64,000 nucleotides of DNA. Source: Burkholderiales bacterium (GTDB lineage Bacteria; Pseudomonadota; Gammaproteobacteria; Burkholderiales; Casimicrobiaceae). Location of the stretch: the NCBI GenBank assembly GCA_025927765.1, contig JAICKU010000011.1:1-64000 (forward strand), written 5' to 3'. Below are positions 20,496-36,306 of the stretch, one piece after another. The position numbers and the translations under genes were made by a program. Within the stretch, counting starts at the first letter, position 1, and every line of letters begins with the position of its first letter. The notes beneath the pieces were generated by a model. The model ran no database searches. It was given only the letters and a program-made list of their open reading frames with translations, and was not told the origin of the DNA.

Positions 20496-20562
20496 CGGTG
20501 CCTTGCGAACGCTCTGCGAGGCAAGCGTGGGGTCGTGATCCGATGTCGCGAGGCGGACGCCG

Positions 20563-20985
20563 TCAGCCGAACGTCACGGTGCCCTCGATCGCGGCGAGGC
20601 CGGCCTTCGCCACTTCGAGATCTTCCTCGCCGGTTTGCGAGCCCACGCCGATGCCGCCGATTGTCATCCCGTCGACGATGATCGGCAAACCGCCCTTCAG
20701 GTTCACGAGTTGCCCGGAGGTCGCGTGCGCGAGTCGAAATTCGAGCTCGCCCTGGATGCCGCCGGTGGGCGCGCGGCTCGAAGCGGCCGTCGAGGCCTTG
20801 CGAATCGCCGATTCGATGCTGAGCCGCTTGCCGCCGTCCATGCGGGTGAACGCGAGAAGATGACCGCCCTCGTCGACGACGGCGATGCATTGCGGCTTTT
20901 TCATCTCGACAGCCTTGCGAACGGCCGCCTCGATGATCTTCATGGCGCCCGCCTGCGTGAGGCGAAGATGTTGTTCGACGTGCAT
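20563..20985 (-). CDS. heme-binding protein-like (GlcG/HbpS family)
   Basis: A 140-residue GlcG/HbpS-fold protein. Visible family features are the N-terminal helix LTQAGAMKIIEAAVRKAVEM, CIAVVDEGGHLLAFTRMDGG and the Gly-rich GGLPIIVDGMTIGGIGVGS. I chose the ATG at 20985, preceded by GAGGAGACCGATCG, over the ATG at 21009. Members are often encoded in catabolic operons (glycolate, diols) and some bind haem, but the biochemical role is generally unclear. It lies 26 bp after the ring-opening amidohydrolase gene, in the same operon. Confidence 0.85.
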   Translation of the reverse strand: MHVEQHLRLTQAGAMKIIEAAVRKAVEMKKPQCIAVVDEGGHLLAFTRMDGGKRLSIESAIRKASTAASSRAPTGGIQGELEFRLAHATSGQLVNLKGGLPIIVDGMTIGGIGVGSQTGEEDLEVAKAGLAAIEGTVTFG

Positions 20986-21011
20986 CGATCGGTCTCCTCG
21001 CGCGCTCATGT

Positions 21012-22118
21012 TCACGCTTCGGCGATGACGCAGATCAGGTTCGCGCCGGGCGGCCCCTGATGCTCGGCACCGGCCGACGCGAGGAACATCGTGTCGCCGA
21101 CGATGGTCGCGACGGCCGCATGCGCCACCGCTTTGGCCTGAATGCCGGAGAAGGGGGCGAGGAAGTCGGAGTGCAGCACGTGCCTGCGCCCGCGCACGCT
21201 CGTCACGTAATCGGCGCCCGCATTCACGAGCACGGCCGCGATGCGCGGGCGATCGCGCTCGCTCACCGTGCCGTCCTGCAGCTCGAGTCCCGCGCGCGCG
21301 AACGCCTCGCGTGCGCCGCGAATGTCGAGCTGATCCTGCATCACGCCATGCGCTGCGACGAGCTTGCCCGGCGCACCCTCGACGTTGCCGATGACGAGCA
21401 CGCGGCACGCGACCTGCTCGCCGCCCGCCGACGTCGACGCGACCGACGAATACACGGATTTGTCGACGTTGATCATCGCGTCGGAAAGCCGCTCGCGCGC
21501 GACTTCGCCGGTGGCCACCGCCACGCCGAGTGCGCACGCGCCCTTCGCGAGCGACGATGCGACGACCGGGTTCGTATTGGCGACCTTGCGCCCGCGCTGC
21601 CCGGCGTCAGCCACGCGCGCGGGCGTCATCGCCGGGCATTTGATCTCCACGCATTCGATTTGCGAGGGATCGCTGATGCCGGCGTCCTTCATCGCGGCGC
21701 GCACCGCGTCCGCGACGAGGTCGACCTGCACCATCGTGCCGTATTCCTCGGGCAGCAGCTGTCGGCTGCTCGCAACGCCGAGCGCGAGGCGTTTCTGCGT
21801 GCCGCCCGCCGCAGCGGGCTTGCGGATGAACAGGATGATGTGGGGGCACATGATGCCGCCCACGCCGCCAATCATCATCATCGGGATCCGTTCGAACACC
21901 TCCCGCCGGGAGATGCCGAGCCGCTCGGAGAGCAGGACTTCCATCGCGAGCGTCGCGTAGCCGCGCGCGTACGGATCGCCTTCGGTCTGCTCCATGATGG
22001 CGACGACATGCTTCGGATCGATTTCCTTGCGGTCGAACAGCGCGGCCACGCCCGAGACGTCGCCCGGCCCGCTCATCGGCACGCGCACCACTACCGCTTC
22101 GAATCCCTCACTCGACAC
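21012..22118 (-). CDS. ring-opening amidohydrolase (cyanuric acid hydrolase/barbiturase family), divergent
   Basis: A 368-residue protein of the AtzD/barbiturase family, enzymes that open cyanuric acid or barbituric acid rings with a Ser-Lys dyad on a pseudo-threefold fold. The middle site is intact: Lys in CVEIKCPAMTPARV and Ser in SSVASTSAGGEQ, the dyad regarded as catalytic. The other sites have decayed: the first Lys (GKTEGNG in AtzD) is Gln in IMEQTEGD and its Ser (SGGTEGVLSPH) is Ile in IGGVGGIMCPH; the third Lys (AKAEA) is Asn in VNAGAD, while SAGAEHQGPPGA keeps its Ser. This suggests a less symmetrical substrate. GTG start, GAGGAG five bases upstream. It is the first gene of an operon driven by a clear promoter at 22148-22176. 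Confidence 0.88.
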   Translation of the reverse strand: MSSEGFEAVVVRVPMSGPGDVSGVAALFDRKEIDPKHVVAIMEQTEGDPYARGYATLAMEVLLSERLGISRREVFERIPMMMIGGVGGIMCPHIILFIRKPAAAGGTQKRLALGVASSRQLLPEEYGTMVQVDLVADAVRAAMKDAGISDPSQIECVEIKCPAMTPARVADAGQRGRKVANTNPVVASSLAKGACALGVAVATGEVARERLSDAMINVDKSVYSSVASTSAGGEQVACRVLVIGNVEGAPGKLVAAHGVMQDQLDIRGAREAFARAGLELQDGTVSERDRPRIAAVLVNAGADYVTSVRGRRHVLHSDFLAPFSGIQAKAVAHAAVATIVGDTMFLASAGAEHQGPPGANLICVIAEA

Positions 22119-22147
22119 GTCAACTCCTCGACGATTCGGCGGGGATC

Positions 22148-22189
22148 AGTAAAACGACTATCGCTCCTGATGTCAAGTTATTTCGAAAT
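22148..22189 (-). promoter_or_regulatory. promoter with upstream ATTTCGAAAT palindrome (ring-opening amidohydrolase operon)
   Basis: On the minus strand a perfect -35 TTGACA (22176-22171), a 17-bp spacer and TTTACT (22153-22148) as -10 predict a start near 22141, about 23 nt before the GTG of the amidohydrolase. Three bases upstream of the -35 lies the palindrome ATTTCGAAAT (22180-22189) in the context GGAATTTCGAAATA. The same geometry recurs at 28853-28894. The palindrome centre is near -44, a position that fits an activator or a repressor site. Confidence 0.75.
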
Positions 22190-22321
22190 TCCGGATAACG
22201 TAATATGAAGCCCCGGATGGCCAACATGAGCGGAGGTGCCGGCCGCGCGATGACGACGCGCGAAGATGCGTCGAAACGCTCGAAACCGACGCGTCGCGAG
22301 ACGACGCCGAACGCGAAAGCG

Positions 22322-22786
22322 TCAGCCCCGCTTGTGCCGCCAGCACTCGAACGGCGCCTCGCCGTCGACGTGCATCGGCACGTGCTCGATCCGGATCGAT
22401 TGCCGCGACACGGGCTTGGCCATTTCCGCGTAGATCGCAGCCGTCGACAGCCCGTATTGCTCGGCGTCCTCGTTCGAGTACGCGTAGTAGACCTCCGAGA
22501 TGCCGGTCAGGTGGATCGCCGACAGGCACATGGGACAGGGGTGAGCGCTGGCGTACATCACGCACCGCTCGAGGCGCGGGCTCTTCAGCCGGACCGCGGC
22601 GGCGCGGATCGACTGCATTTCCGCGTGCGTCGAGGGGTCGTGGGTGGCGAGCACTTCGTTGACGCCCGTCGCCAGCACCTCGTCGTCCCTGACGAGGACG
22701 GCGCCGAACGGGCGCCCGCCGCGTTCGAGCACGTTCTCCCGTGCGAGGCGGATGGCGGTCGCAAGATGATCGCGGTTCATGATCAT
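22322..22786 (-). CDS. nucleoside/nucleobase deaminase (GuaD-like, CDA fold)
   Basis: A 154-residue cytidine-deaminase-fold enzyme most like small bacterial guanine deaminases. The zinc site is complete: STHAEMQSI (HAE: one ligand plus the catalytic Glu) and AHPCPMC (two Cys ligands); the usual CEPCPMC has Ala-His in place of Cys-Glu. The C-terminal FECWRHKRG is longer than the FxAW tail of GuaD. It would deaminate a purine, pyrimidine or triazine amino group; related GuaD-type enzymes have been shown to accept ammeline. It is the last gene of the minus-strand import/deamination operon. Confidence 0.85.
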   Translation of the reverse strand: MIMNRDHLATAIRLARENVLERGGRPFGAVLVRDDEVLATGVNEVLATHDPSTHAEMQSIRAAAVRLKSPRLERCVMYASAHPCPMCLSAIHLTGISEVYYAYSNEDAEQYGLSTAAIYAEMAKPVSRQSIRIEHVPMHVDGEAPFECWRHKRG

Positions 22787-22815
22787 GGTTGTGCTTCCCT
22801 TTTGCGCTTAGAAAT

Positions 22816-24033
22816 TCAGTGGCCGACGTATTTTCCGTCGCGCGCGACGAGCTTTCCGGCCTTGAACACGTGGCTTCGCGCCGGACGGGCGACGACCGCC
22901 TCTGCGACGTTGCGTGCAGGAACGACGATCAGGTCCGCCGGTGCCCCCGCGTGCACGCCGTAGTCGTCGACACGCAGCGCGCGCGCCGCGCTGTGCGTCG
23001 CGAGATCGAGCGCGACGGCGAGTTCCTCGTCGGTGAGGAAGCCCGAGCCGTAGGCGATCAGCATCGCGCGCTCGAGCATGTCGGCGTCGCCGTAGGGCCA
23101 CCAGGCGTCGCGGATGTTGTCGTTGCCCGCGATGACGGTCACCCCCGCCTCGCGTAGCTGCATGACCGACGGATAGGCGTGGTTGCCTGGCGCGTTGGTG
23201 AGAATCGACACGCCGGCGTCGGCGAGCTTCTCCGCGGTGCGTTGAGCATCTGCCTCGGGCACCATGCCGAGCGCGTACGCATGGCTCACGTTGACGCTGC
23301 CCGCCATGCCGACGGCCTTGGTGCGCCGTGCGATCTCGTCGAGTTCGGCCAGCCCTTCGCCCGCGGCATCGTGCAGGTGGATGTCGATGCCTGCGGCGTG
23401 GCGCTGCGCGAGTCCGAACACGGCGTCGAGCTGGCCGTCGACGTCGTGATCGACGCCCGACGGGTCGAGCCCACCCACGAGGTCCGCGCCTTCACGCAGC
23501 GCCGCATCCATCAGCTCGAGCGTCCCGGGGCACGACACGAGGCCGCGCTGCGGGAACGCCACGATCTCGATCGATGCCGCGTGCTTGTAGCGTTCGCGCG
23601 CAGCCAGCACGGCGTGCAGGCTCTTCAAGCCGGTGACGGGATCGATGTCGACATGCGAGCGCATCCGGGTCGTGCCATGCGCAACCGCGAGTTCGATCAG
23701 GGCGGCGGCGCGCTGCTCGACGGGCGCCGCGCGACCGAGGATTTCCGCTTCGATGGCGACGCGCTCCATCACGCTGAATGTCGCGCTCGTGCCGCGGCGG
23801 TGCGATTGCCACGCATCGCCGACCAGCGACTTGTCGAGATGCACGTGCGCGTCGATCAGCCCGGGCAGCACCAGCGACCCGCCGAGCGACATCGCGTCGC
23901 CCCCAGCGGGAAGCGCAGCGTCGATCGCCGCGATGCGGCCCGCGGTGATGCCGATCGAGACCGTGCTGCCGTCCGCGAGCAGCGCATCCGCCAGCACGGT
24001 ATCGAAGCGGTGACCCGCCTTCGCGTTCATCAC
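22816..24033 (-). CDS. amidohydrolase of the cytosine deaminase (CodA/AtzC) type
   Basis: A 405-residue metal-dependent hydrolase of the cytosine deaminase-like group. Metal-site residues are visible: HVHLDK (HxH after beta-1, about 63), IDIHLHDAAGEG (about 218), VSHAYALG (about 253) and GNDNIRDAWWPYGD (catalytic Asp, about 303). The HVHLDK and GNDNIRD motifs match CodA and AtzC (N-isopropylammelide hydrolase) rather than dihydroorotase-type enzymes. It probably hydrolyses an exocyclic amine from a pyrimidine or triazine ring. No signal peptide, so it is cytoplasmic. It sits between the BMP transporter genes and the GuaD-like gene in one operon. Confidence 0.87.
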   Translation of the reverse strand: MMNAKAGHRFDTVLADALLADGSTVSIGITAGRIAAIDAALPAGGDAMSLGGSLVLPGLIDAHVHLDKSLVGDAWQSHRRGTSATFSVMERVAIEAEILGRAAPVEQRAAALIELAVAHGTTRMRSHVDIDPVTGLKSLHAVLAARERYKHAASIEIVAFPQRGLVSCPGTLELMDAALREGADLVGGLDPSGVDHDVDGQLDAVFGLAQRHAAGIDIHLHDAAGEGLAELDEIARRTKAVGMAGSVNVSHAYALGMVPEADAQRTAEKLADAGVSILTNAPGNHAYPSVMQLREAGVTVIAGNDNIRDAWWPYGDADMLERAMLIAYGSGFLTDEELAVALDLATHSAARALRVDDYGVHAGAPADLIVVPARNVAEAVVARPARSHVFKAGKLVARDGKYVGH

Positions 24034-24035
24034 GC

Positions 24036-25136
24036 CTACGACTTAGGAAAGGGTCCGTTGATGCCTTCGACGAGCCAGTTGATGCTGCGGATTTCCTTGT
24101 CAGACAGCGAGCCGCCGGCGGCCACGCGCTGCTTGCCGTCGCGATCCTTGAGCGGGCCGGCGAACACCTTGAGCTTGCCGCTGACGATGTCCTTTTCGCG
24201 CTGCTTGGCGTCCGCGACCACCTCGGCGGGTATCGCGGCGTTGTAGGGGACCATTGCGCAGAATCCACCCTCGCCGAGGCCTCGAAAGCGGTCTTGCGCC
24301 TTCCACGTTCCGGCCAGGGCGTCGCGTGCGGAGTCGATGTACGCGCTGCGCCAATCGAAGATGTCGCCGGTCAGCTGCTTCTTCGGCACGAACTTGGAAA
24401 AGTCGCTGCAGTTGGCGATCGACCACGCGCCACGCTCTTCCGCGGCAACGCCCTGCACCGGCGTGTTCGGGCTGCCCGCAAGCACGTCGGCGCCCTGCGA
24501 AATCAGCGCGTTCACCGCATCCTTCTCCTTTGCGGGGTCGTTCCAGGTATTGATCCAGACGACGTTGCACACCGCCTTCGGATTGACGCTCCGCGCGCCG
24601 AGCATGAAGCCGTTCATTCGCCACACGGTCTGCGGGATGGGAAATGCGCCGACCCAGCCGAGCGTGTTGCTCCTGGTCATCCGGCCGGCGATGACGCCGG
24701 CGACATAGCTCGCCTCGTAGTTGCGCGCTTCGAACGCGCCCATGTTCTTCAGCGTCGTGACCGACGCGCAGCAATCGAAATGGGTGTTGGGTGCGGTGCG
24801 GGCGACCTTCAGCATCGGAGCCATGTGCGAGAACGTGGTTCCGAAGATCAGCTTGTTGCCCTGCGACGCGAGCTCGCGGAACACGCGCTCGGAGTCCTGC
24901 GCCTGCTGCACGTCGGCGACGACCGTCACCTTGACCTTGCCGGGAAATGCGGCCTCCATCGCCTTCCATCCCAACGCGTGCTGCGTTTCCCAGCCGACTT
25001 CGCCGATCGGATATTGATGCACGACGCCCACGTTGAGGACGTCCTGCGCGAACGCATCGAGCGCGCGAGCGCCGAGTGCCGCGATGCCAAGCGACGAAGA
25101 GGCCTTCAGGAAATCACGTCTGTTCACGATACGCAT
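24036..25136 (-). CDS. BMP-family ABC transporter substrate-binding protein
   Basis: A 366-residue periplasmic binding protein of the BMP/PnrA family, which binds nucleosides or nucleobases. Mature-domain signatures include NVGVVHQYPIGEVGWETQHALG and the DVLAGSPNTPVQGVA region. Export is by a Tat-type signal: NRRDFLKASSSLGIAALGARALDAFAQD, with twin arginine and an AFA cleavage site. A lipobox, usual in Firmicute members, is absent. Its stop lies 2 bp from the CodA-like gene, linking uptake with deamination. Confidence 0.9.
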   Translation of the reverse strand: MRIVNRRDFLKASSSLGIAALGARALDAFAQDVLNVGVVHQYPIGEVGWETQHALGWKAMEAAFPGKVKVTVVADVQQAQDSERVFRELASQGNKLIFGTTFSHMAPMLKVARTAPNTHFDCCASVTTLKNMGAFEARNYEASYVAGVIAGRMTRSNTLGWVGAFPIPQTVWRMNGFMLGARSVNPKAVCNVVWINTWNDPAKEKDAVNALISQGADVLAGSPNTPVQGVAAEERGAWSIANCSDFSKFVPKKQLTGDIFDWRSAYIDSARDALAGTWKAQDRFRGLGEGGFCAMVPYNAAIPAEVVADAKQREKDIVSGKLKVFAGPLKDRDGKQRVAAGGSLSDKEIRSINWLVEGINGPFPKS

Positions 25137-25214
25137 GGCTTTCTCCTGCTCTGGGTCATGGTTGCCGATGTCGTTGGCAACGTCGCAACGACGCTCGCCG
25201 CGGACTCGCTTGTT

Positions 25215-26138
25215 TCATACGCCCGGGTGGAACGGCTTGCCGAGTGACACGGGGGCATTGAGGCGGATCATGGCCACATCGCGCGAAATCACCACCAGCA
25301 CCACGATCGTGGCAAGGTAAGGAAGCATCGACATGAACTGCGTGGCAAACGCGACGCCCGCACTTTGCGCGAAATACTGCACGATCGTGATGCCGCCGAA
25401 CAGATAGGCCCCGAGCATCACGCGTGCGGGACGCCACGTCGCGAACACCACCAGCGCGAGCGCGATCCATCCGCGGCCCGCGACCATGCCTTCGAGCCAC
25501 AGCGGGGCGTAGACGAGCGAAAGATAGGCGCCGCCGATCCCGGCCATCGCGCCGCCGAACAGCGTCGCCAGATAGCGGATGCGGATGACCGGATAGCCCA
25601 CTGCGTGCGCCGATGCGGGCGATTCGCCGACGGCGCGCAGCACGAGGCCCGCGCGGCTGCGGAACAGGAACCAGCTGACGCCTGCGAACAGCAGCCACGA
25701 CACGTAGACCAGCGGGTGCAGCGAATGCAGCAGCGGGCTCAGCAGCGGAATGTCGATCGGCAGCGAGAGACCGGCGTCCGCGCGGTTCTCGAGCGTCACT
25801 CCCACGAAGCCCTTGCCGATGAACGCGCTGACACCCGCGCCGAAGATCGCGAGCGCGAGACCCGCCGCCACCTGGTTGGCCTGCAGCGTCAAGGTCGCGA
25901 AGGCGAACAGCAGCGCCATCAGCGCGCCCGCGACGCCTGCGACGGCCACGCCGAGCCACAGATCCCCCGTCGAGCGCATCGTGATGAATGCGACGATCGC
26001 ACCGACGAGCATCATGCCTTCGACGCCGAGATTGAGAACCCCGGATTTCTCGGCGACCAGTTCTCCGAGTGCCGCGAAAATCAGCGGCGTGCCGGCGCCG
26101 AGCGTCGCGGCGATGACCGACACGACCATGTCCATCAC
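25215..26138 (-). CDS. nucleoside/nucleobase ABC transporter permease (YufQ/BmpC type)
   Basis: A 307-residue permease with eight or more hydrophobic segments. The start region ATLGAGTPLIFAALGELVAEKSGVLNLGVEGMM is the family signature of the second permease of BMP-type importers. It overlaps the upstream permease gene by 4 bp. The gap of 78 bp to the binding-protein gene contains no obvious terminator. Confidence 0.92.
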   Translation of the reverse strand: MMDMVVSVIAATLGAGTPLIFAALGELVAEKSGVLNLGVEGMMLVGAIVAFITMRSTGDLWLGVAVAGVAGALMALLFAFATLTLQANQVAAGLALAIFGAGVSAFIGKGFVGVTLENRADAGLSLPIDIPLLSPLLHSLHPLVYVSWLLFAGVSWFLFRSRAGLVLRAVGESPASAHAVGYPVIRIRYLATLFGGAMAGIGGAYLSLVYAPLWLEGMVAGRGWIALALVVFATWRPARVMLGAYLFGGITIVQYFAQSAGVAFATQFMSMLPYLATIVVLVVISRDVAMIRLNAPVSLGKPFHPGV

Positions 26139-27226
26139 AGCGCCGCCCTGGGCTGATCGAGCGGGACGGCGCGGATGACCCGCACACGGAAGTTGACCAG
26201 CACGTCGGCGCCGAGCAGGAAGAACAGCAGCGCGCCCTGAAACAGCGCAGCCGCGGCGGCCGGCAATCCCATGCTGATCTGCGCGGAGTCGCCGCCGAGG
26301 TAAAGCAGCGACATCAGCAAGCCGGCGAACACGATGCCCACCGGATCGAGGCGCCCGACGAACGCAACGATGATGGCCGTGAAGCCGTAGCCCGGCGATA
26401 TCGTCGGCAACAATTGCCCGAGCGGCCCCGCGACCTCGCCGACGCCCGCGAGTCCTGCCGCAGCGCCGCCGGCGAGCATGCCGACCCAGACGGTGCGCTT
26501 CTCGCTGAATCCCGCATAGCGCGCCGCGGCGCTCGACAGCCCGACGACGCGCGTCTTGTAACCGAGAAAGCTTTTCTCGAGGAATACCCAGCTCACGACG
26601 ACCGCCGCCAACGTCAACAGCACGCTGGCATTGAGCCGCGTGTTGGCGATCAGGATCGGAAACAGCGCGCCGTCGGCGAAGAGCGCCGATTGCGGTGTGT
26701 TGAACCCCTGGGGATCGCGCCAGGGGCCGAACACCAGCCAGTTGACCAGCAACTGCGCAACGTACGTGAGCATCAGGCTGACGAGGATCTCGTTCGCGTT
26801 GAAGCGCGTGCGCAGGAACGCGGGAATCGCCGCCCAGGCCATGCCGCCGAGGATGCCGGCGACGATCATCGCGGCGAGCAGCAGCGGACTGTCGGCGAAC
26901 GCGGGATCGAGCGCCACCCAGCCGGCTGCGATGGCACCGAGGGTCAGCTGTCCCTCGGCGCCGATGTTCCAGATGTTGCTGCGAAATCCCACCGCCAGCC
27001 CGAGCGCGATCAGCACCAGCGGCGACGCCTTGAGGAACAGCTCGGCCAGGCCGCCGACGCTGTTGATCGGCGCGATGAAAAACGCGTAGAAGGCCGCGGG
27101 CGGATTCTTGCCGAGCGCGGCGAACAGGATGAATCCCATCACGAGCGTCAGGGCCGCGGCAATGAGCGGTGATGCATAGCGCATCGCGCGCGATTGCAGC
27201 GCGCGGGGCTCCAGTCTAAGTTGCAT
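26135..27226 (-). CDS. nucleoside/nucleobase ABC transporter permease (YufP/BmpB type)
   Basis: A 363-residue polytopic permease, the longer partner of the pair, with the typical GFRSNIWNIGAEGQLTLGAIAAGW motif (about 80-103) and SPGYGFTAIIVAFVGRLDPVG (about 287-307). It overlaps the ATPase gene by 11 bp upstream and the second permease by 4 bp downstream, so the whole import operon is tightly coupled. Confidence 0.92.
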   Translation of the reverse strand: MQLRLEPRALQSRAMRYASPLIAAALTLVMGFILFAALGKNPPAAFYAFFIAPINSVGGLAELFLKASPLVLIALGLAVGFRSNIWNIGAEGQLTLGAIAAGWVALDPAFADSPLLLAAMIVAGILGGMAWAAIPAFLRTRFNANEILVSLMLTYVAQLLVNWLVFGPWRDPQGFNTPQSALFADGALFPILIANTRLNASVLLTLAAVVVSWVFLEKSFLGYKTRVVGLSSAAARYAGFSEKRTVWVGMLAGGAAAGLAGVGEVAGPLGQLLPTISPGYGFTAIIVAFVGRLDPVGIVFAGLLMSLLYLGGDSAQISMGLPAAAAALFQGALLFFLLGADVLVNFRVRVIRAVPLDQPRAAL

Positions 27227-28787
27227 GCAGCGACTCGACGAGCGGCGCGCTGACCGGGCCGGCCACCTGGTCGGGCCACAGACCGCTCATCCACACGCCG
27301 ATTTCCTCGACGTCGGTTTCGGTGACGCGCTTTGCATGCGACAGGCGGCCGTTCGCCATCACCGCGATGCGATCACAGATCTCGAACAGTTCCTCGAGAT
27401 CCTCGGACACCACGAGCACGGCGGCGCCGGCGTTGCGAAGTTCGATGAGCGATTGGCGGATCGACACCGCCGCCCCGACATCGACGCCCCACGTCGGCTG
27501 CGATACGACGAGCACCTTCGGATGCTGCATCACCTCCCGACCGACGATGAATTTCTGCAGGTTGCCGCCCGACAGGCTCTTCGCTTCGGCATGCGGGCCC
27601 GCGCACTTCACATCGAAATCATCGATGCAACGCCGAGCGAAGTCGGTGATCGCGTCGGATCGCAGCATGCCGAGCGCAACCATCCGCTGGGCATGCGCCG
27701 TCAGCAGCGCATTGTCGGCAAGCGACATCGACGGGATCGCGGCGCGACCCAGCCGCTCTTCGGGAATGAAGCAAAGCCCGAGCCGTCGACGTGCGGCGGC
27801 ACCGAGGCGTGCCACCGCTATCCCGCACACATGAATGGCATCGTCATCGGGCGTGCTGCGTTCGCCGGACAGCGCCGCGAGCAGCTCCTGCTGTCCATTG
27901 CCGGAGATGCCGGCGATGCCGAGGATTTCGCCGCTTCGCACGGCCAGCCGGATGTCGGCCAAATCGGTGCCGAATGGATCGTCGCAGACAAGGGAAAGCC
28001 CGTTGACGACGAGGCGTTCCTCACCGTCGCCCGCGGCCTCGGGATGATTGCATTTGGGCAAGTCGCGGCCGATCATCAGGCGCGCCATGCTGGCGGCGGT
28101 CTCGCGCTGCGGCTCGCACGTTCCGGTCACCTTGGCCGCGCGGAGCACCGTTGCACGATGACAAAGCGCCTTGATCTCGTCGAGCTTGTGGCTGATGTAG
28201 AGAACGCTGCAGCCTTCACCCGCCACCTGCCGCAACGTCTCGAACAGTCGCGTTGCGGCCTGCGGCGTCAGCACGGACGTCGGCTCGTCCATGATGAGCA
28301 GCTGCAGATCCTGCAGCAGGCAGCGAATGATTTCCACGCGCTGGCGCTCGCCGATGGAGAGCGAATGGACGAGCGCCCGAGGATCGACGGTCAGGCCGTA
28401 GCGTTCCGACACTCCCCCGATCCGCGCGGCGACGTCGTCGAGACCGGGGTTGCCTGGCAACACCAGCGCGACGTTTTCGGCGACGGTCAGCGTTTCGAAC
28501 AGCGAGAAGTGCTGGAAGACCATGCCGATGCCGAGCTCGCGCGCATGCGCAGGACTGGCGACGTCGATCCGCGCACCATGCCAGAGGATCTCGCCCGCGT
28601 CCGGCTTGACGACGCCGTAGATGATCTTCATGAGCGTGCTCTTGCCGGCGCCGTTTTCACCCAGGACAGCGTGAATCTCGCCCGGCATGACGCGAAGATC
28701 GATGCCGTCGTTGGCGACGACCGCGGGATAGGACTTGCAGATGCCCCGCAATTCCAGTCGCGCGGGATTGTCGTTACGCGCGGCCAC
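27216..28787 (-). CDS. nucleoside/nucleobase ABC transporter ATPase (duplicated domain)
   Basis: A 523-residue ATPase with two ABC domains, as in RbsA/YufO-type importers. The first has Walker A GENGAGKSTLMKIIYG, signature LSIGERQRVEIIRCLL and Walker B LLIMDEPTSVLTP. The second has a degenerate Walker A (GISGNGQQELLAALSG) and signature LSGGNLQKFIVGREV, which is normal for this family. The GTG start at 28787 follows a 59-nt leader from the promoter at 28853-28881. It is the first gene of the operon ATPase-permease-permease-BMP protein-CodA-like-GuaD-like. Confidence 0.92.
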   Translation of the reverse strand: MAARNDNPARLELRGICKSYPAVVANDGIDLRVMPGEIHAVLGENGAGKSTLMKIIYGVVKPDAGEILWHGARIDVASPAHARELGIGMVFQHFSLFETLTVAENVALVLPGNPGLDDVAARIGGVSERYGLTVDPRALVHSLSIGERQRVEIIRCLLQDLQLLIMDEPTSVLTPQAATRLFETLRQVAGEGCSVLYISHKLDEIKALCHRATVLRAAKVTGTCEPQRETAASMARLMIGRDLPKCNHPEAAGDGEERLVVNGLSLVCDDPFGTDLADIRLAVRSGEILGIAGISGNGQQELLAALSGERSTPDDDAIHVCGIAVARLGAAARRRLGLCFIPEERLGRAAIPSMSLADNALLTAHAQRMVALGMLRSDAITDFARRCIDDFDVKCAGPHAEAKSLSGGNLQKFIVGREVMQHPKVLVVSQPTWGVDVGAAVSIRQSLIELRNAGAAVLVVSEDLEELFEICDRIAVMANGRLSHAKRVTETDVEEIGVWMSGLWPDQVAGPVSAPLVESLHAT

Positions 28788-28852: not shown

Positions 28853-28894
28853 AGTAAACTGGCTATCACGCACGTTGTCAAGATATTTCGAAAT
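28853..28894 (-). promoter_or_regulatory. promoter with upstream ATTTCGAAAT palindrome (BMP importer operon)
   Basis: On the minus strand, -35 TTGACA (28881-28876), a 17-bp spacer and -10 TTTACT (28858-28853) predict a start near 28846. The palindrome ATTTCGAAAT (28885-28894) lies three bases upstream of the -35, as at 22148-22189. Even the spacer shares a GATAG core with that promoter. This repeated architecture argues for one regulator acting on both operons. Confidence 0.75.
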
Positions 28895-29002: not shown

Positions 29003-29034
29003 ATTTCGAAATTCCTGCCTGTATGCGATATTAT
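29003..29034 (+). promoter_or_regulatory. candidate promoter with ATTTCGAAAT palindrome (split fdrA / ylbE operon)
   Basis: The 331-bp divergent gap 28788-29118 holds a second copy of the motif here, GATATTTCGAAATTCC (16 bp identical to the copy at 28883-28898). Downstream on the plus strand is TATTAT (29029-29034), a good -10, which would give a start near 29041 and place the palindrome over the -35 region. No separate TTGACA is present, so the site may be an activator site replacing the -35, or a repressor site. A GC-rich self-complementary CCGGCTCGAGCCGG lies in between. Confidence 0.55.
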
Positions 29035-29118: not shown

Positions 29119-29289
29119 ATGGAAACGGACAAGCTGCTGCAATCGGAGGTGCGCGTGATCAATATCGGACTCGCCGAGTTCGCCCACGACCTCGAGCGGT
29201 GCGACGTGCCCGTGGTCCACGTCGAATGGTCGCCTCCCGCCGTCGGCGATCCCCGGATCGCGGCGCTGCTCGCCAAGCTCGGCGGCTGA
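29119..29289 (+). CDS. small protein equivalent to the detached C-terminal domain of FdrA
   Basis: A 56-residue ORF, too short for the track, starting at ATG 29119 after GGAGAGCACGTC and ending 7 bp before the DUF1116 gene. Its sequence has the pattern VRVINIGLAEFAHDL...PVVHVEWSP...GDPRIAALLAKL. From memory of E. coli FdrA (about 555 residues), the last ~50 residues of that protein read VAVINIGLRSFALEL...PVVHYQWSPVAGG, a clear match. The FdrA encoded at 30612 here is 502 residues and ends before this domain. So FdrA is split, with the C-terminal piece encoded first, ahead of the DUF1116 gene. It probably re-associates with the main FdrA chain. Confidence 0.78.
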   Translation: METDKLLQSEVRVINIGLAEFAHDLERCDVPVVHVEWSPPAVGDPRIAALLAKLGG

Positions 29290-29296
29290 GGGTGAG

Positions 29297-30559
29297 ATGA
29301 CGAGCGCGTCCCCCGACACCATCGCCGGCGCCAACCGCGAGGCGCTGCGGCGCATCCTCGCGAGCGATCCCGTCCTCGTGGACGTTCAGCTCGCTCGCGA
29401 CGCGATCCCGCGGCTTCCCGATCGTACGATCCTGCACGCAGGCCCGCCGATCGGCTGGGACCGCATGTGCGGGCCGATGCGGGGCGCGGTCGCCGGTGCG
29501 ATCGTGTTCGAAGGATGGGCGGACGACCTCGATGCTGCGGCGCGGCTCGCGGCATCGGGCGAGATCCGCTTCGAGCCGAATCACCATTACGACGGCGTGG
29601 GGCCGATGACGGGCATCACGACGCGCAACATGGCGGTGCTGGTCGTCGAGAACCGCGCGTTCGGCAACCGGGCCTTCTGCACGGTGAACGAAGGCATCGG
29701 CAACGTGATGCGCTTCGGCGGCAACGATCGCGAGGTCATCGAGCGTCTCCAGTGGATCGCGTCCGTCGCCGGCCCCGCGCTCGGAGCGGCGATTCGCCAC
29801 CGCAAGGGCATTCCGCTCAAGAGCCTCATCGCGCGCGGCCTGTCGATGGGCGACGAAATGCACATGCGCAACGCCGCGTGCTCGAGCCTGATCCTGCGCG
29901 AACTCGCCGGCGACCTCGCGGACACGGCGCGCTCCGACCTGAGCCGCATCCTGCGGTTCATCGCCGGCAACGACATGTTCTTCCTGAATGTCGCGATGGC
30001 GATGGCGAAGTCGATCGCTGCCGCGGCGCACGACATCCCGCACTCGACGGTCGTCACGACGATGGCTCGCAATGGCACCGATTTCGGCATTCGCGTGAGC
30101 GGCACCGGCGATCACTGGTTCACCGGCCCCGCGCAGATGGCGCGCGGACTGCTGTTCGCCGGCTTTTGCGAAGCCGACGGCAACGTGGACATCGGCGATT
30201 CGTGCATCACCGAAACGGTCGGGCTCGGCGGCTTCGCGATGGCGGCGTCGCCGGCCGTCGTCGGCTTCATCGGCGCGGGAACGCTCTCCGACGCGATCGC
30301 GTACACGCACCGCATGCGCGAGATCACCGTCGGCACGAACGCCGACTGGGCGCTGCCCACGCTCGAGATGGCGGGCGTGCCCACCGGCATCGACATCCGC
30401 AAGGTGCTGGCCACCGGTGTGCTGCCGGTCATCAACACCGCGATCGCCAACCGCTTGCCAGGGCGCGGCCAGGTGGGCGCCGGCGTCGTTCACCCGCCGC
30501 TGACCTGTTTCGAGCAGGCGCTGATCAGGTTTGCCGAAATGAATGGAGCCGACGCATGA
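29297..30559 (+). CDS. DUF1116 protein, YlbE/AllG-type carbamoyltransferase subunit (copy 1)
   Basis: A 420-residue DUF1116 protein homologous to E. coli YlbE. Conserved stretches include HAGPPIGWDRMCGPMRGAV, PNHHYDGVGPMTG, RAFCTVNEGIGNVMRFGGND, ARGLSMGDEMHMRN and ARNGTDFGIRVSGTGD. In E. coli YlbE acts with FdrA and YlbF and the three have been reported to form oxamate carbamoyltransferase, which phosphorolyses oxalurate to oxamate and carbamoyl phosphate. The gene is flanked by both parts of split FdrA, so it is likely that complex's partner. A second DUF1116 copy lies at 34227. Cytoplasmic; no signal peptide. Confidence 0.88.
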   Translation: MTSASPDTIAGANREALRRILASDPVLVDVQLARDAIPRLPDRTILHAGPPIGWDRMCGPMRGAVAGAIVFEGWADDLDAAARLAASGEIRFEPNHHYDGVGPMTGITTRNMAVLVVENRAFGNRAFCTVNEGIGNVMRFGGNDREVIERLQWIASVAGPALGAAIRHRKGIPLKSLIARGLSMGDEMHMRNAACSSLILRELAGDLADTARSDLSRILRFIAGNDMFFLNVAMAMAKSIAAAAHDIPHSTVVTTMARNGTDFGIRVSGTGDHWFTGPAQMARGLLFAGFCEADGNVDIGDSCITETVGLGGFAMAASPAVVGFIGAGTLSDAIAYTHRMREITVGTNADWALPTLEMAGVPTGIDIRKVLATGVLPVINTAIANRLPGRGQVGAGVVHPPLTCFEQALIRFAEMNGADA

Positions 30560-30611
30560 GCGCGCAGGGCCGCGAATCGATTCCGCAGTGCAACGCCCGG
30601 AGGGGAGTCCA

Positions 30612-32120
30612 ATGACCACCGTCGTCAACCAGGTTCGCCGCGCGTTCTATCGCGACTCGGTCGCCCTCATGCGCATCTCGCGCGCGGTTGCCGCGCTTCC
30701 GGGCGTCGGCGACGCGGCGCTCATGATCGGCTCGACGACCAACAAGAAGCTGATGCAGGACGCCGGGTTGCTCAATGCCGACGGCGAAGGGGCGTCGCCG
30801 AACGACCTCGTCTTCGCCGTCACGGCCGACACTCTGGAGAATGCAAACTCGGCGCTCGCCGAGGCTGCGCGCCTGCTCGACGAGCCGAGCACGTCCGAGC
30901 AAGGCGACGCGCGCTGGCACCCGAAATCGCTCGACACCGCGCTCTCGCAGTTGCCGGGCGCCAACATTGCGCTGATTTCGGTGCCCGGCGAATTCGCAGC
31001 GGCCGAGGCGCGGCGCGCGCTGAACCGCGGCCTGCACGTGATGATGTTCAGCGACAACGTGCCCGTCGCCGACGAGGTCGCGCTGAAGCAGGACGCGCGT
31101 GCCCGCGGACTGCTGATGATGGGCCCCGATTGCGGCACGTCGATCATCGGCGGCGTCCCCCTCGCGTTCGCGAACGTGATCGCGCGCGGCGACATCGGCA
31201 TCGTCGGGGCGTCGGGAACCGGCTTGCAGGAAGTGTCGACGTTGATCGCCCGCCACGGCGGTGGCGTGTCGCACGCGATCGGCGTGGGCGGCCGCGACCT
31301 CAAGCAGGCGGTCGGCGGCATCACGACGCTGATGGCGTTCGACGCGCTCGACCGCGATCCGGGCACGCGACAGATCGTGCTGATCTCGAAACCGCCCGAG
31401 GCGTCGGTGGCGAACGCCGTGCTCGAGCGGATCGGCCAAAGCGACAAGAAAGTGTCGATCTGCTTCATCGGGACGGGCGAGATGCGCGTGCCGCCGAATG
31501 CCGCGCTCTTCTCCGACCTGCGATCGACCGCCGAAAGCGCGCTCGGGGGCAAGCGCATCGGATGGCAAGGCACGGCGCCGTCGCCGGCGGAGCTCGCGCG
31601 CCGCGTCGGCCGAGGCCGCACGCGCGTGCGCGGACTCTTCTCCGGAGGCACGATGTGCGCCGAAGCGCAGGTGTTCTTCGGCCGCGCGGGCGTCGAAGTC
31701 ACGTCGAACGTGCCGATTCCCGGGGTGCGCGAGGCGGACGCCGGTTCGAGGGAGGGCAACGTCCTGCTCGATCTCGGCGACGACGAGTACACGGTCGGCC
31801 GGCCGCATCCGATGATCGACGCGACGCTACGCAATCGCATGCTCGCCGAGACGCTCGCGGACGATCGCACGGCGGTCGTGCTGCTCGACGTCGTCATCGG
31901 CTACGGCGCCCACGCCGATCCCGCGAGCGAACTCGTGTCGGCCTTACCCGACGCGCGAGCGAGGCAGGCGGTCGTGATCACGTCCGTTTGCGGCACCGAG
32001 GACGATCCGCAAAGCTATTCGCGCCAGGCGCGCGTGCTCGAGGATGCGGGTGTCGTCGTCGCGCCGTCGAATGCGCACGCGGCGGAAATCGCGCTCGACG
32101 TGCTGCGCGCGCTCGCCTAG
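30612..32120 (+). CDS. fdrA: FdrA-like protein, main part (acyl-CoA synthetase-like fold)
   Basis: A 502-residue protein with the succinyl-CoA-synthetase-like domains of FdrA. Typical stretches are RAFYRDSVALMRISRAV at the start, ALISVPGEFAAAEARRAL, MMFSDNVPVADEVALK, MGPDCGTSIIGGVPLAFANV, GIVGASGTGLQEVS and LGDDEYTVGRPHPMIDATLRN. It lacks the last ~50 residues of full-length FdrA, which are encoded separately at 29119. The ATG at 30612 follows GGAGGGGAGTCCA. It converges on the DUF2877 gene with only 4 bp between stops. The proposed role is transfer of a carbamoyl group to phosphate as part of an oxamate-carbamoyltransferase-like complex. Confidence 0.88.
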   Translation: MTTVVNQVRRAFYRDSVALMRISRAVAALPGVGDAALMIGSTTNKKLMQDAGLLNADGEGASPNDLVFAVTADTLENANSALAEAARLLDEPSTSEQGDARWHPKSLDTALSQLPGANIALISVPGEFAAAEARRALNRGLHVMMFSDNVPVADEVALKQDARARGLLMMGPDCGTSIIGGVPLAFANVIARGDIGIVGASGTGLQEVSTLIARHGGGVSHAIGVGGRDLKQAVGGITTLMAFDALDRDPGTRQIVLISKPPEASVANAVLERIGQSDKKVSICFIGTGEMRVPPNAALFSDLRSTAESALGGKRIGWQGTAPSPAELARRVGRGRTRVRGLFSGGTMCAEAQVFFGRAGVEVTSNVPIPGVREADAGSREGNVLLDLGDDEYTVGRPHPMIDATLRNRMLAETLADDRTAVVLLDVVIGYGAHADPASELVSALPDARARQAVVITSVCGTEDDPQSYSRQARVLEDAGVVVAPSNAHAAEIALDVLRALA

Positions 32121-32124
32121 AACC

Positions 32125-33012
32125 TCATCGGACGAGCGCCGCGCAGACGGCCACGGCGCCCGCGAGGCAATCCCAGCCGGACGTGTGACCGACGGCGTCG
32201 ACGGCGTCGAGGCACGCGTCGAGCGACGGCTGCCCCGGCTGCAGCAGACATGCGAGCACATCGAACAGCACGATCGATGCTTCGCCGGTCGACGCGCAGC
32301 GAAGGTACGCGTGGCTCACGAGGTTCGTCGCGTGCGCCGCACGAGGCAGAACGGCGTCCGCCAGCCGCGACGCGATCGCGCCGTGACCGAAGAAGTTCAA
32401 CGCCGCCATCACCCCGCACAGGTAATCGTCGCCCGACGGCGTGAGACCGCCGCCGAGGCCGATCAGCGCCTCGACGTCCGGCACCGGCTCCTCGCGACTC
32501 GAAAGCGACGTCGCGAGCCACGCGCGGAGCGCCGCGATCGTCGGGGCCGACGCCTCGAGCAGCCGATCGTTCCCGGCACGCGACGTGCCGTCCGGCACGC
32601 CTAGCAGCGGACCATAGCCGCCCGGTGCGCGTGCCGCGACCGACGCCGCAAGCCGCGCGAGACCCGCGCGCAGTACTCCCGCGTCGACCCCGCGCGGCCC
32701 GGCCGGGCGCGTCCATACCTGGGCGCCCTCGAAATCGATGCGAAAGCGTCCATCGATATGGAGCGACATGCCGTCGCGCACGACGTCGACATTCGGCGCG
32801 AGCCCGCGAGCGGCCCAGGCCACACGTTCCTCGCAGAGCGCGTTCAGCGGCCCCGCGCGAAGGCCGAGCTGACCGAAGCACACGAGGTCGTCGCCGAAGC
32901 GAACGTAGAAGCTGCGCTGGAACACCGCGAGCACGCCGCCGCGGTCGTGCGCGCGCAGCGTGTCGGCGGCGCGGCTGCCGACGACGACGACGTTGATGCG
33001 CGCGTGCGGCAC
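32125..33012 (-). CDS. DUF2877 protein, YlbF/AllH-type carbamoyltransferase subunit
   Basis: A 295-residue DUF2877 protein, the family of E. coli YlbF. A Gly-rich segment LIGLGGGLTPSGDDYLCGVMAALNFF (about 194-219) is the family hallmark. In E. coli the gene lies with fdrA, ylbE and the carbamate kinase gene ybcF and has been reported as the third subunit of oxamate carbamoyltransferase. Here it is on the minus strand, 19 bp downstream of carbamate kinase, so the two form a separate operon converging on fdrA. Confidence 0.82.
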   Translation of the reverse strand: MPHARINVVVVGSRAADTLRAHDRGGVLAVFQRSFYVRFGDDLVCFGQLGLRAGPLNALCEERVAWAARGLAPNVDVVRDGMSLHIDGRFRIDFEGAQVWTRPAGPRGVDAGVLRAGLARLAASVAARAPGGYGPLLGVPDGTSRAGNDRLLEASAPTIAALRAWLATSLSSREEPVPDVEALIGLGGGLTPSGDDYLCGVMAALNFFGHGAIASRLADAVLPRAAHATNLVSHAYLRCASTGEASIVLFDVLACLLQPGQPSLDACLDAVDAVGHTSGWDCLAGAVAVCAALVR

Positions 33013-33031: not shown

Positions 33032-33994
33032 TCAGTCGGCGACGATGTGCGTCCCTGCTTGGCCGCGAAGGACCGGCACGGCGTCCTCGAGCCGGCCGAT
33101 CATCACTCGACGGCCGCCGCCTTCGAGAAACTGGATCGCGGCGTCGATCTTCGGTCCCATGCTGCCCGGCGGGAACTGTCCTTCGGCGTGCCACTTGCGG
33201 ACTTCGGCGAGCGTGACCCGGTCGAGCGGGCGCTGGTCCGGCTTGCCGAAGTTGATGGCGACACGCGGGACCGCCGTGAGGATCATCAGGTCGTCGATAT
33301 GCAGCACGTTCGCCATGAGCGCCGACGTGCGATCCTTGTCGATGACCGCCTCGACACCCCGCCGCTGGCCCCTGCCGCTGCGCACGACCGGCACACCGCC
33401 GCCGCCGCCGGCGATGACGACCGCGCCGCTCTTCGCGACCGTCTGCACGAGCGAGATGTCGACGATGTGCCGCGGACGCGGTGAAGGCACGACGTGGCGC
33501 CAGCCCCTGCCGGAATCCTCGCGCATCTGCCAGCCGAGTTCCTCCTGCAGCGCCTTCGCCTCCTGCTCGGTGTAGAAGTAGCCGATCGGCTTCGATGGAT
33601 TGGCGAACGCGGGATCGTTCGGGTCGACTTCGACCTGCGTCAGCAGGCACACGACGTGGCGAGGATTGCCCTTGGCGCGCAGCGCGTTTTCGAGCGCCTG
33701 CATCAGCAGATAGGCGATACCGCCCTGGCTGTGCGCGACACAGATGTCGAGCGACATCGGCTCGACGCGCTGGCGCGCGATCGACTGGCGCATGAGGATC
33801 TTGCCGACGACCGGGCCGTTGCCGTGCGTGATGATGAGCTCGTTGCCGAGCTCCATGACGGGCAACAGCGCGTCGCCAAGCCTGGCCGCCACCTCGGCCT
33901 GCTCCGAAGGCGTGCCGCGAATGCCTTCGGGATGCGTGGCATTGCCGCCTATCGCGATCACCAGGCGCTCCGGAATGCCATTGGCGTTCGACAT
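33032..33994 (-). CDS. arcC: carbamate kinase (catabolic)
   Basis: A 320-residue amino-acid-kinase-fold enzyme. Signatures are VIAIGGNATHPEG at the N-terminus, LIITHGNGPVVGKILM, VVIAGGGGGVPVV, DKDRTSALMANVLHIDDLMILTAV and the C-terminal FPPGSMGPKIDAAIQFLEGGG. It converts carbamoyl phosphate plus ADP to ATP, CO2 and NH3 and so conserves energy from carbamoyl-phosphate-forming pathways. No arginine deiminase or ornithine carbamoyltransferase gene is nearby; the adjacent FdrA/YlbE/YlbF set is the evident source of carbamoyl phosphate. Start at ATG 33994 with AGGA upstream; the ORF track start lies 66 bp further up. Confidence 0.94.
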   Translation of the reverse strand: MSNANGIPERLVIAIGGNATHPEGIRGTPSEQAEVAARLGDALLPVMELGNELIITHGNGPVVGKILMRQSIARQRVEPMSLDICVAHSQGGIAYLLMQALENALRAKGNPRHVVCLLTQVEVDPNDPAFANPSKPIGYFYTEQEAKALQEELGWQMREDSGRGWRHVVPSPRPRHIVDISLVQTVAKSGAVVIAGGGGGVPVVRSGRGQRRGVEAVIDKDRTSALMANVLHIDDLMILTAVPRVAINFGKPDQRPLDRVTLAEVRKWHAEGQFPPGSMGPKIDAAIQFLEGGGRRVMIGRLEDAVPVLRGQAGTHIVAD

Positions 33995-34099
33995 CGGTGA
34001 TTCCTCGAATCCACCCGCCGCAAGTCGCCGCGCACGCAGTGCGCGCGCGGCGGGGCGCAAGGCGGGTAGATTAAGGCATCGCGCGCGCTTGTGCGAGTT

Positions 34100-34178
34100 T
34101 TTCGAAATTTTTCGACTGTGGCACGATCGACGGTTACTTCGATCTTTATTGCCTGCGCTCGCCGCGCTCCGGTATCAT
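34100..34178. promoter_or_regulatory. divergent regulatory region between arcC and the second ylbE
   Basis: This lies in the 232-bp gap 33995-34226. A TTTCGAAA palindrome inside TTTTTCGAAATTTTTCG (core 34100-34107) is a weaker variant of the motif in the other island promoters. Toward ylbE copy 2, TTGCCT (34149-34154), 18 bp and TATCAT (34173-34178) form a plausible promoter with a start near 34185. Toward arcC the sequence after the palindrome aligns in spacing with the other promoters but the hexamers (TCGCAC, TAATCT) are poor. Confidence 0.45.
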
Positions 34179-34226: not shown

Positions 34227-35477
34227 GTGCAGAAGATCGAACTCGCGAACAGGGAAGCGCTGCGCACTATTCTCGACGGGCAGCCGGTGCTCGTCGACGT
34301 GCAGCCCGCGGGCAGCGTGATCGAGGGTCTCGGCAGGAACGTGATCCTCCACTCCGGTCCCCCGATCTCATGGGAGCGGATGTGCGGGCCGATGCGTGGA
34401 GCGGTATGCGGCATCGCCGTGTTCGAAGGCTGGGTCGCCGACCTCGACGACGCGGCGCGCGCCGCGGCAAGCGGCCGGTTCGCCTTCCACCCGAACCACC
34501 ATTTCGGCGCGGTCGGTCCGATGACCGGCATGACGACGATGAGCCAGCCGGTGATGATCGTCGAGAACAAGGCGTTCGGAAACCGCGCCTACTGCACGAT
34601 CAACGAGGGCCTCGGCAAGGTGATGCGCTTCGGCGGCAACGACGCCGAAGTGCTCGAGCGGCTGCGCTGGATCGCCGATGTGCTCGGGCCGGCGCTTTCC
34701 GCGGCGCTGACGGCGAGCGGTGGCCTCGGTCTCAAGAGCATCATCGCGCGCGGCCTCGCCATGGGCGACGAGATGCATCAGCGCAACGTCGCGTGCTCGG
34801 CGCTGTTCCTGCGCGAGATCGCACCTTCGCTCGCACGCACGTCTCGCGATCGCGACACGCTCGCCGAAGTGATGGCGTTCATCGGCAGGAACGACCAGTT
34901 CTTCCTGAACGTGGCGATGGCGATGGGCAAGGCGATGACGGACCCCGCGAGCGGCATCGACGGCTCGTCGATCGTCACCGTGATGTGCCGCAACGGCACC
35001 GACTTCGGCGTGCGCGTGAGCGGCACCGGCGATCGCTGGTACACCGCGCCGGTCGAGATGCCGGTCGGCCTCTTCTTCCCCGGCTACTCGCAACGCGACG
35101 CGAATCCCGACATGGGCGATTCCGCGATCGTCGAAACGATCGGCCTCGGCGGTTTCGCGATGGCCACCGCGCCGGCAGTCGCGGGCTTCGTCGGCGCCGG
35201 TTCCGCGCGCGACGCGGCCAACTACACGAACGCGATGTACGAGATCACCGTCGGCCGCAATGCCGAGTGGACGATGCCGAATCTCGACTTCGCCGGCGTG
35301 CCGACGGGCATCGACATCCGCAAGGTTCTCGCGACCGGCCAGGCACCGGTGATCAATACCGGAATCGCGCACCGCGAGGCGGGTGTCGGCCAGGTCGGTG
35401 CAGGTATCGTGCGCGCTCCGCTCGCATGCTTCGAGCAGGCACTAACCGGACTCGCGCAGCAACTGGGCGTCGACTGA
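34227..35477 (+). CDS. ylbE: DUF1116 protein, YlbE/AllG-type carbamoyltransferase subunit (copy 2)
   Basis: A 416-residue paralogue of the protein at 29297. It reads HSGPPISWERMCGPMRGAV, PNHHFGAVGPMTGMTTM, RAYCTINEGLGKVMRFGGND, RNDQFFLNVAMAMGKAMTDPA and GIAHREAGVGQVGAGIV. Several stretches (DQFFLN, GYSQRDANPDMGDSAIVE) are closer to E. coli YlbE than copy 1 is. The GTG at 34227 with GAGGAGA upstream gives the family N-terminus; the 577-residue track ORF runs back over the divergent promoter. It heads an operon with the GntR regulator, a binding protein, an amidohydrolase, an amidase and a PRTase. No FdrA gene is adjacent, so it may swap with copy 1. Confidence 0.88.
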   Translation: MQKIELANREALRTILDGQPVLVDVQPAGSVIEGLGRNVILHSGPPISWERMCGPMRGAVCGIAVFEGWVADLDDAARAAASGRFAFHPNHHFGAVGPMTGMTTMSQPVMIVENKAFGNRAYCTINEGLGKVMRFGGNDAEVLERLRWIADVLGPALSAALTASGGLGLKSIIARGLAMGDEMHQRNVACSALFLREIAPSLARTSRDRDTLAEVMAFIGRNDQFFLNVAMAMGKAMTDPASGIDGSSIVTVMCRNGTDFGVRVSGTGDRWYTAPVEMPVGLFFPGYSQRDANPDMGDSAIVETIGLGGFAMATAPAVAGFVGAGSARDAANYTNAMYEITVGRNAEWTMPNLDFAGVPTGIDIRKVLATGQAPVINTGIAHREAGVGQVGAGIVRAPLACFEQALTGLAQQLGVD

Positions 35478-35535: not shown

Positions 35536-36306
35536 ATGCTGAAGGAACATGTGCGCCAGGACCGAGCGGCGAGCGGAGGGGCCTCGTTCTCCGGCTCGCC
35601 GTCGCCGACGAGCGAAGTCGCGTCGCGAACGCTCGCCGGCGAGACGTTCGAACGGCTGCGCCGCGACATCCTCACGGCACGCCTGCCCCCGGGCACGAAG
35701 CTCCGCTTCGATTACCTGCGCAAGACCTACAAGGTCGGGCTGAGCCCGCTTCGCGAGGCGCTGTCGCGGCTGGCCGAGAACCGTCTCGTCGTCGCAACCG
35801 GGCAGCGCGGGTTTCGGGTGCCGTCGGTGTCCGCGCAGGACATCATGGACATCGCGATGGTGCGCAAGGAAATCGAAGCGCTCGCGCTGCGCCTGTCGAT
35901 CGAATACGGCGACGACGCATGGGAGGCGAACATGGTCGCCGCTCGCCACAAGGTGGCCCTGCTCGAGAAGGCCGGCAAAAACGTCGCCGAGGACGTCTGG
36001 GAGACGCGCCACCGCGATTTCCACCGCACGCTCGTCTCGGCCTGCCGATCGGAATGCCTGCTCCATCTTCACGGCCTGCTGAGCGACCAGTTCGATCGCT
36101 ATCGCCGGCTCTCGGCGAAGAGCCGACTGCCCAATTCGCCGCGCTCGCTGATCCACCAGCGGCTCCTCGACGCCGTGCTCGCTCGCAACGCCGACCTCGC
36201 CGTCAAGCTTCTGTGCGACCACATCGACGAAGCGACGAAGCTGATCGTCGCCGGACTCTCGTCGCCCGAGAAGCGGGCGCGAAAGAAGAACGGCGCCCGC
36301 GCGTGA
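35536..36306 (+). CDS. GntR-family transcriptional regulator (FCD domain)
   Basis: A 256-residue regulator. The winged-helix DNA-binding domain is seen at TFERLRRDILTARLPPGTKLRFDYLRKTY and VGLSPLREALSRLAENRLVVATGQRGFRVP (about 35-95); the rest is a helical FCD effector domain with ETRHRDFHRTLVSAC and a late His (LLCDHIDEATKLI). The N-terminus has a 30-residue Ser/Ala-rich extension. FCD-type GntR proteins usually repress and are released by a carboxylic acid intermediate. It is the only regulator gene in the island and so the best candidate to act on the shared ATTTCGAAAT promoters, though that motif is not the classic FadR-type operator. Confidence 0.9.
   Translation: MLKEHVRQDRAASGGASFSGSPSPTSEVASRTLAGETFERLRRDILTARLPPGTKLRFDYLRKTYKVGLSPLREALSRLAENRLVVATGQRGFRVPSVSAQDIMDIAMVRKEIEALALRLSIEYGDDAWEANMVAARHKVALLEKAGKNVAEDVWETRHRDFHRTLVSACRSECLLHLHGLLSDQFDRYRRLSAKSRLPNSPRSLIHQRLLDAVLARNADLAVKLLCDHIDEATKLIVAGLSSPEKRARKKNGARA

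Follow-up and report, generated by a model that had tools for sequence, protein, structure and literature searches.

The window analyzed here, a 64,000-nucleotide stretch of a Burkholderiales bacterium (Casimicrobiaceae; assembly GCA_025927765.1, contig JAICKU010000011.1), carries a complete AllFGH-type gene set, consisting of FdrA/AllF with its CoA_binding and Ligase_CoA domains, two AllG genes, AllH, and a catabolic carbamate kinase (Table 1). FdrA, YlbE, and YlbF are AllF, AllG, and AllH, the three subunits of E. coli oxamic transcarbamylase, which converts oxalurate and inorganic phosphate into oxamate and carbamoyl phosphate, and AllF was crystallized as a homodimer (PMC11326118). The same study contains no discussion of the FdrA C-terminal segment or of a separate small protein. 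In the window, a gene for a protein of this segment type stands directly before AllG copy 1, at a spacing that looks coupled, and opens a transcription unit flanked by operator-like sites.

Table 1. Genes and operator-like sites of the cluster, in window positions
Feature	Position	Strand	Evidence or remark
Ring-opening amidohydrolase (cyanuric acid hydrolase/barbiturase family)	21012..22118	-	PF09663 E 1.8e-112; 6bum_A E 3.5e-81; barbiturase 5hwe_A E 4.4e-51
ATTTCGAAAT site	22180..22189	.	Upstream of ring-opening amidohydrolase
Palindromic operator-like site ATTTCGAAAT	28885..28894	.	Upstream of small gene, after ABC transporter
Second ATTTCGAAAT site	29003..29012	.	Upstream of small gene, after ABC transporter
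Free-standing FdrA C-terminal-type module, 56 aa	29119..29289	+	ATG start; NF004760 and 3dmy_A matches; invariant G17, W37, P39
Small-gene stop, 7-base gap with GGGTGAG, AllG copy 1 ATG	29287..29299	+	Sequence; gap 7 nt, frame offset 1
AllG (YlbE, PF06545) copy 1	29297..30559	+	PF06545 E 1.8e-87; 3clq_A E 1.9e-123
FdrA/AllF core without C-terminal module, 502 aa	30612..32120	+	PF00549 (Ligase_CoA) E 2.3e-33; PF02629 (CoA_binding); NF004760 485 bits, cut-off 433
AllH (YlbF)	32125..33012	-	PF11392 E 1.3e-23
Carbamate kinase (AllK/ArcC type)	33032..34060	-	TIGR00746 E 6.4e-105; NF009007 above cut-off; true start probably internal
TTTTCGAAAT operator-like site	34099..34108	.	Upstream of AllG copy 2
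AllG copy 2, without module attached or upstream	about 34227..35477	+	PF06545 E 1.6e-91
GntR/FCD regulator	35536..36306	+	PF00392, PF07729; orthologues L027 73%, L151 69%

The small gene and its cluster

The 56-residue protein matched positions 505-554 of the 555 in the NCBIfam profile NF004760 (E 3.9e-11) and residues 425-475 of 3dmy_A, the crystal chain of E. coli FdrA (E 1.5e-8). The match of the window FdrA to NF004760 was limited to positions 6-494 and its match to 3dmy ended at residue 411 of 480, indicating that this protein lacks the C-terminal segment. The original prediction was therefore correct in assigning the small protein to the FdrA C-terminus, in describing the main FdrA as stopping short of that segment, and in giving the order as C-terminal piece, ylbE copy 1, and FdrA. 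Three residues (G17, W37, and P39) were invariant across 62 module homologues, in fused and free forms alike. The module was predicted to fold as helix-strand-helix-strand-helix (mean pLDDT 85). Foldseek gave the segment in 3dmy as the closest match, at 51% identity (prob 1.00), although with an E-value of only 6.7e-3 (TM 0.5). No Pfam model matched the module at E <= 1, and a literature search found no paper on a separate FdrA domain protein or on the FdrA C-terminal segment. Homology of the module to the AllG N-terminus, which looks alike by eye (V.V..a....L....H.gPP), or to any region of FdrA was rejected, with HHalign probabilities of 1.4% and 0.6%, respectively.

The small open reading frame is a real gene under purifying selection, as evident from low dN/dS against its two nearest relatives (0.19/1.42 and 0.37/1.52; the L083/L104 pair was left out owing to mis-anchored starts), substitutions dominated by the third codon position (14/7/27 by position against the nearest relative), and a GGGAGAG-like ribosome-binding site 5' of its ATG. 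Its position-specific GC content (0.75/0.39/0.86) was also coding-like. At 171 bp, the gene exceeds the minimum length that widely used gene finders apply by default. Since it lies in a different frame from AllG copy 1, the pair is not a read-through fusion.

The two AllG copies of the window are accompanied by a single gene each for FdrA, the module, AllH, and carbamate kinase, and AllH occurs as a single copy in the whole genome. No module match was obtained next to AllG copy 2, including in the translated upstream region. The same two-AllG cluster is found in Rhodoplanes serenus (L151 5463-6941), with a module-less second AllG (76% identical to AllG copy 2), a carbamate kinase (75%), and AllH. 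These clusters hint at a mixed complex of both AllG proteins. The GntR/FCD protein at the end of the cluster is likely its regulator.

In comparison with E. coli AllFGH (FdrA of 555 aa, 3DMY), the window shares the FdrA core domains, AllG, AllH, carbamate kinase, and the module sequence family. In E. coli, however, the module is fused to FdrA in the order fdrA-ylbE-ylbF-ybcF, whereas the window has a separate module gene in the order module-allG-fdrA, with allH and the kinase gene on the other strand. The second E. coli system, YahF/YahG, resembles the window in having the module immediately before AllG but differs in that the module is fused to YahG and FdrA lies upstream of it. The closest arrangement is that of alphaproteobacterial module-AllG-FdrA(-kinase-AllH) operons (Bradyrhizobium; R. 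serenus, L028), which have a free-standing module and the same gene order, although their AllH and carbamate kinase genes are mostly on the same strand, and a second AllG and a nearby ring-opening amidohydrolase distinguish the window clade from them.

Distribution of the module and direction of change

To place the module in other loci, 127 AllG genes and their surroundings were searched with profiles built from those loci. They were drawn from 80 loci (one genome per species), a 399-genome sample of the phylum of the window, relatives of the window, and a few plasmid records; because the 80 loci were the best matches to the window AllG, the sample leans toward its relatives and the counts are not global frequencies, with Bacillota, Actinomycetota, and Archaea hardly sampled. 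The module was fused to the AllG N-terminus in 58 loci, with linkers of 5-14 residues to the AllG core, and to the FdrA C-terminus in 5. In a further 51 it was free-standing just 5' of AllG, with gaps of -4 to 140 nt and all three frame offsets represented. It was not found in the stretch examined in 12 loci, and the contig was cut in 1. The 15 modules in the evenly drawn 399 genomes comprised 10 AllG fusions, 3 FdrA fusions, and 2 free-standing genes. The module thus lies 5' of AllG almost always, and the variable part is whether FdrA comes before or after: where FdrA was present in the locus, AllG preceded it in 46/46 free-standing cases, and FdrA preceded AllG in 5/5 FdrA fusions. Both fusions occur in E. 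coli K-12, one as FdrA (555 aa) with YlbE and the other as a YahF-type FdrA (515 aa) with YahG (472 aa), which carries the module at its N-terminus.

Several loci were distinctive in other respects. In a member of the same genus as the window (L126 1-294; contig cut just inside FdrA), FdrA end, module, and AllG are three genes in the E. coli order, with a TGATG overlap between the FdrA end and the module, and another member of this genus has one fused homologue (L125). Two FdrA/AllG systems stand side by side in Bradyrhizobium (L066, L072, L073, L074, L078, and L105), one with a free-standing module and the other with an AllG-fused one. On a Methylocystis plasmid (L142 5833-10526), a module-AllG fusion lies opposite a divergent 640-aa FdrA with an N-terminal extension, annotated as an oxidoreductase, near MSMEG_0572/0565-type nitrogen-starvation genes.

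The direction of change was examined on AllG and FdrA trees, both unrooted quick-search trees and the former built without the module columns. The FdrA fusions formed one clade on each tree (SH-aLRT 100), confined to enterics and Photobacterium. The AllG tree implied at least 10 changes among the three architectures, with free-standing and AllG-fused forms interchanging repeatedly, and the FdrA tree implied 8. The FdrA fusion is accordingly best regarded as a derived state of one enteric/Vibrionaceae clade, a direction taken from its distribution as the trees are unrooted, and its being the general ancestor is hard to reconcile with this single clade. It is a special case, and the genome of the window did not depart from it.

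AllG copy 1 and FdrA of the window grouped with those of two alphaproteobacteria, a Hyphomonadaceae member (L027) and R. serenus (L028); the grouping was fully supported on the AllG tree and had a support of 99 on the FdrA tree (identities of 81/79% and 72/69%, respectively). Both of these nearest relatives carry the free-standing module-AllG-FdrA order, so the absence of the small gene from relatives with the same operon, which would have counted against the original prediction, was not the case; the shared order also means that no split or permutation took place in the genome of the window. The prediction of a split and permuted FdrA, in which an ancestral full-length protein was divided in this lineage and its C-terminal piece moved before ylbE, does explain the presence of the segment on E. 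coli FdrA and the difference in gene order from E. coli. It is nevertheless improbable given the single clade of FdrA fusions, the position of the module 5' of AllG in the closest relatives and most sampled loci, the existence of an AllG fusion in E. coli itself (YahG), and the unpermuted three-gene arrangement of L126 in the same genus. The cassette of the window is shared with alphaproteobacteria, although most genomes of its own order have the AllG fusion, a pattern suggestive of horizontal transfer.

A module that follows FdrA and may contact AllG

The module and FdrA profiles matched the same 11 of the 399 genomes, with equal copy numbers in each (15 and 15), and in four genomes with AllG and no FdrA (G387, G076, G251, and G356), AllH and the module were also missing. 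Loci without an adjacent module had a copy elsewhere in the genome (e.g., G480 and G481), including the apparent exception of an FdrA without a neighboring module (L051) and a contig beginning at AllG (L037), and FdrA itself was elsewhere in the genome for L033, L046, L050, L069, and L091. We therefore regard the 56-residue protein as an obligate module, encoded by its own gene, of an FdrA/AllG/AllH transcarbamoylase of the oxamic-transcarbamylase type, at a probability of roughly 0.78.

Because the module can be fused to the end of FdrA or to the start of AllG, assembly of the enzyme should bring it near both, probably at the point of contact between FdrA and AllG. In the mechanism we propose, gene order and short gaps would keep translation of the module in step with that of AllG, and the module would dock at the junction of the FdrA C-terminus with the AllG N-terminus, completing an (AllF)2/(AllG)2 assembly. 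The enzyme would then phosphorolyze a ureide, such as oxalurate or the product of the neighboring ring-opening amidohydrolase, to carbamoyl phosphate and an amide, and carbamate kinase would produce ATP and ammonia from the carbamoyl phosphate. In the predicted monomer of a fused small-AllG chain (pTM 0.84), the module (residues 1-50) had block means of 64-84 and was modeled less confidently than the rest, so its packing on AllG is not established; Foldseek with this model recovered AllG 3clq only.

A substantial minority possibility is that the module serves FdrA alone, by completing the FdrA fold or dimer, and that its place beside AllG reflects only operon history. The one-to-one occurrence with FdrA and the absence from AllG-only genomes would fit such a role, as would the inclusion of the module in the FdrA homodimer crystal construct 3dmy (PMC11326118). 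In three Nitrospinota loci (L146, L147, and L148), a further FdrA also has a module gene behind it but no AllG in the vicinity, and the module may thus belong to FdrA alone. Set against these observations are the 58 N-terminal AllG fusions with their short linkers and the adjacency to AllG in nearly all other loci, which point to proximity to AllG too. It is far less credible that the small gene is merely a leader or translational-coupling peptide for AllG: small size, a 7-base gap, and a position at the head of the operon are what such a peptide would have, but the invariant G, W, and P in fused and free forms, the low dN/dS, and the existence of the module as a domain of larger proteins exclude this as its sole role. 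Equally implausible is a decaying remnant or an assembly or frameshift artefact of a fused gene, as might be suspected in a draft genome of 148 contigs whose genus has one fused homologue (L125); this was rejected on the 51 free-standing cases with their varied gaps and all three frame offsets, the conserved sequence, and the ribosome-binding site.

The genes around the three Nitrospinota loci resemble, as judged by eye, those for a UbiX-type prenyltransferase, an FAD-dependent reductase, an NAD-binding dehydrogenase, and an amidase. In ten loci (L063, L079, L086, L098, L153-L155, L158, L159, and L161), mostly from Nitrospinota/Tectomicrobia, an AllG that lacks both module and FdrA stands beside an AtzC/cytosine-deaminase-like amidohydrolase; AllG probably has a different use there.

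Operator-like sites and a possible ring-opening pathway

At up to one mismatch, ATTTCGAAAT occurred 5 times in the 64 kb of the window against 0.77 expected, a count reached in 0/100 shuffles, and 4/5 of these sites were at promoters of the cluster, namely those of the amidohydrolase, the small gene (two sites), and AllG copy 2. The palindrome is likely a GntR-family operator, and the ring-opening amidohydrolase would be a putative member of the same regulon as the module cluster. In L027 and Rhodoplanes, the interval from the amidohydrolase to the small gene also contains similar palindromes, although the L027 count is weak alone. The amidohydrolase scored below the cyanuric-acid equivalog cut-off and has orthologues in L027 (82%) and L151 (79%). 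Together with a LOG-type protein, it is conserved beside module-AllG1-FdrA (window 19929-28787, L027 4205-6700, and L151 12487-14808), and this part of the window also contains an AtzC/cytosine-deaminase-like enzyme, a small deaminase, and a BMP-type ABC transporter. A placement of allFGHK next to biuret and triuret genes was noted in a 2025 study of nitrifiers (PMC12625717).

Because the cluster shares its palindromic operator with the ring-opening amidohydrolase, the substrate of the window enzyme may not be oxalurate, which has no support from the neighborhood; the neighborhood suggests a different or additional ureide. The enzyme may act on a ureide released by ring opening (carboxybiuret, biuret, or ureidomalonate), supplying carbamoyl phosphate to carbamate kinase. 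We tentatively extend this to a broader model, which is speculative as a whole, in which the transcarbamoylase of most bacteria outside the enteric/Vibrionaceae clade would need the module apart from FdrA and would in many be a four-protein enzyme with an undescribed smallest subunit of ~56 residues; in the window clade, it would include a second AllG and convert the ureide of the ring opener (carboxybiuret/biuret or ureidomalonate) into carbamoyl phosphate, which would be an undescribed route for such compounds.

A separate module gene is a common arrangement, and on our preferred reading the module is an undescribed, obligate part of a recently assigned enzyme, separately encoded in many bacteria. 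The three-gene assignment of oxamic transcarbamylase dates from 2024 and was made in an enteric bacterium, where the module goes unnoticed as part of FdrA. If only fdrA, allG, and allH were expressed from species that encode the module separately, a conserved portion of the enzyme would be missing. The exchange of fusion partners predicts, in testable form, the site at which FdrA and AllG come together, and the association with a cyanuric-acid/barbiturate-type ring opener suggests that allantoin is not the only source from which this enzyme family recovers energy and nitrogen.
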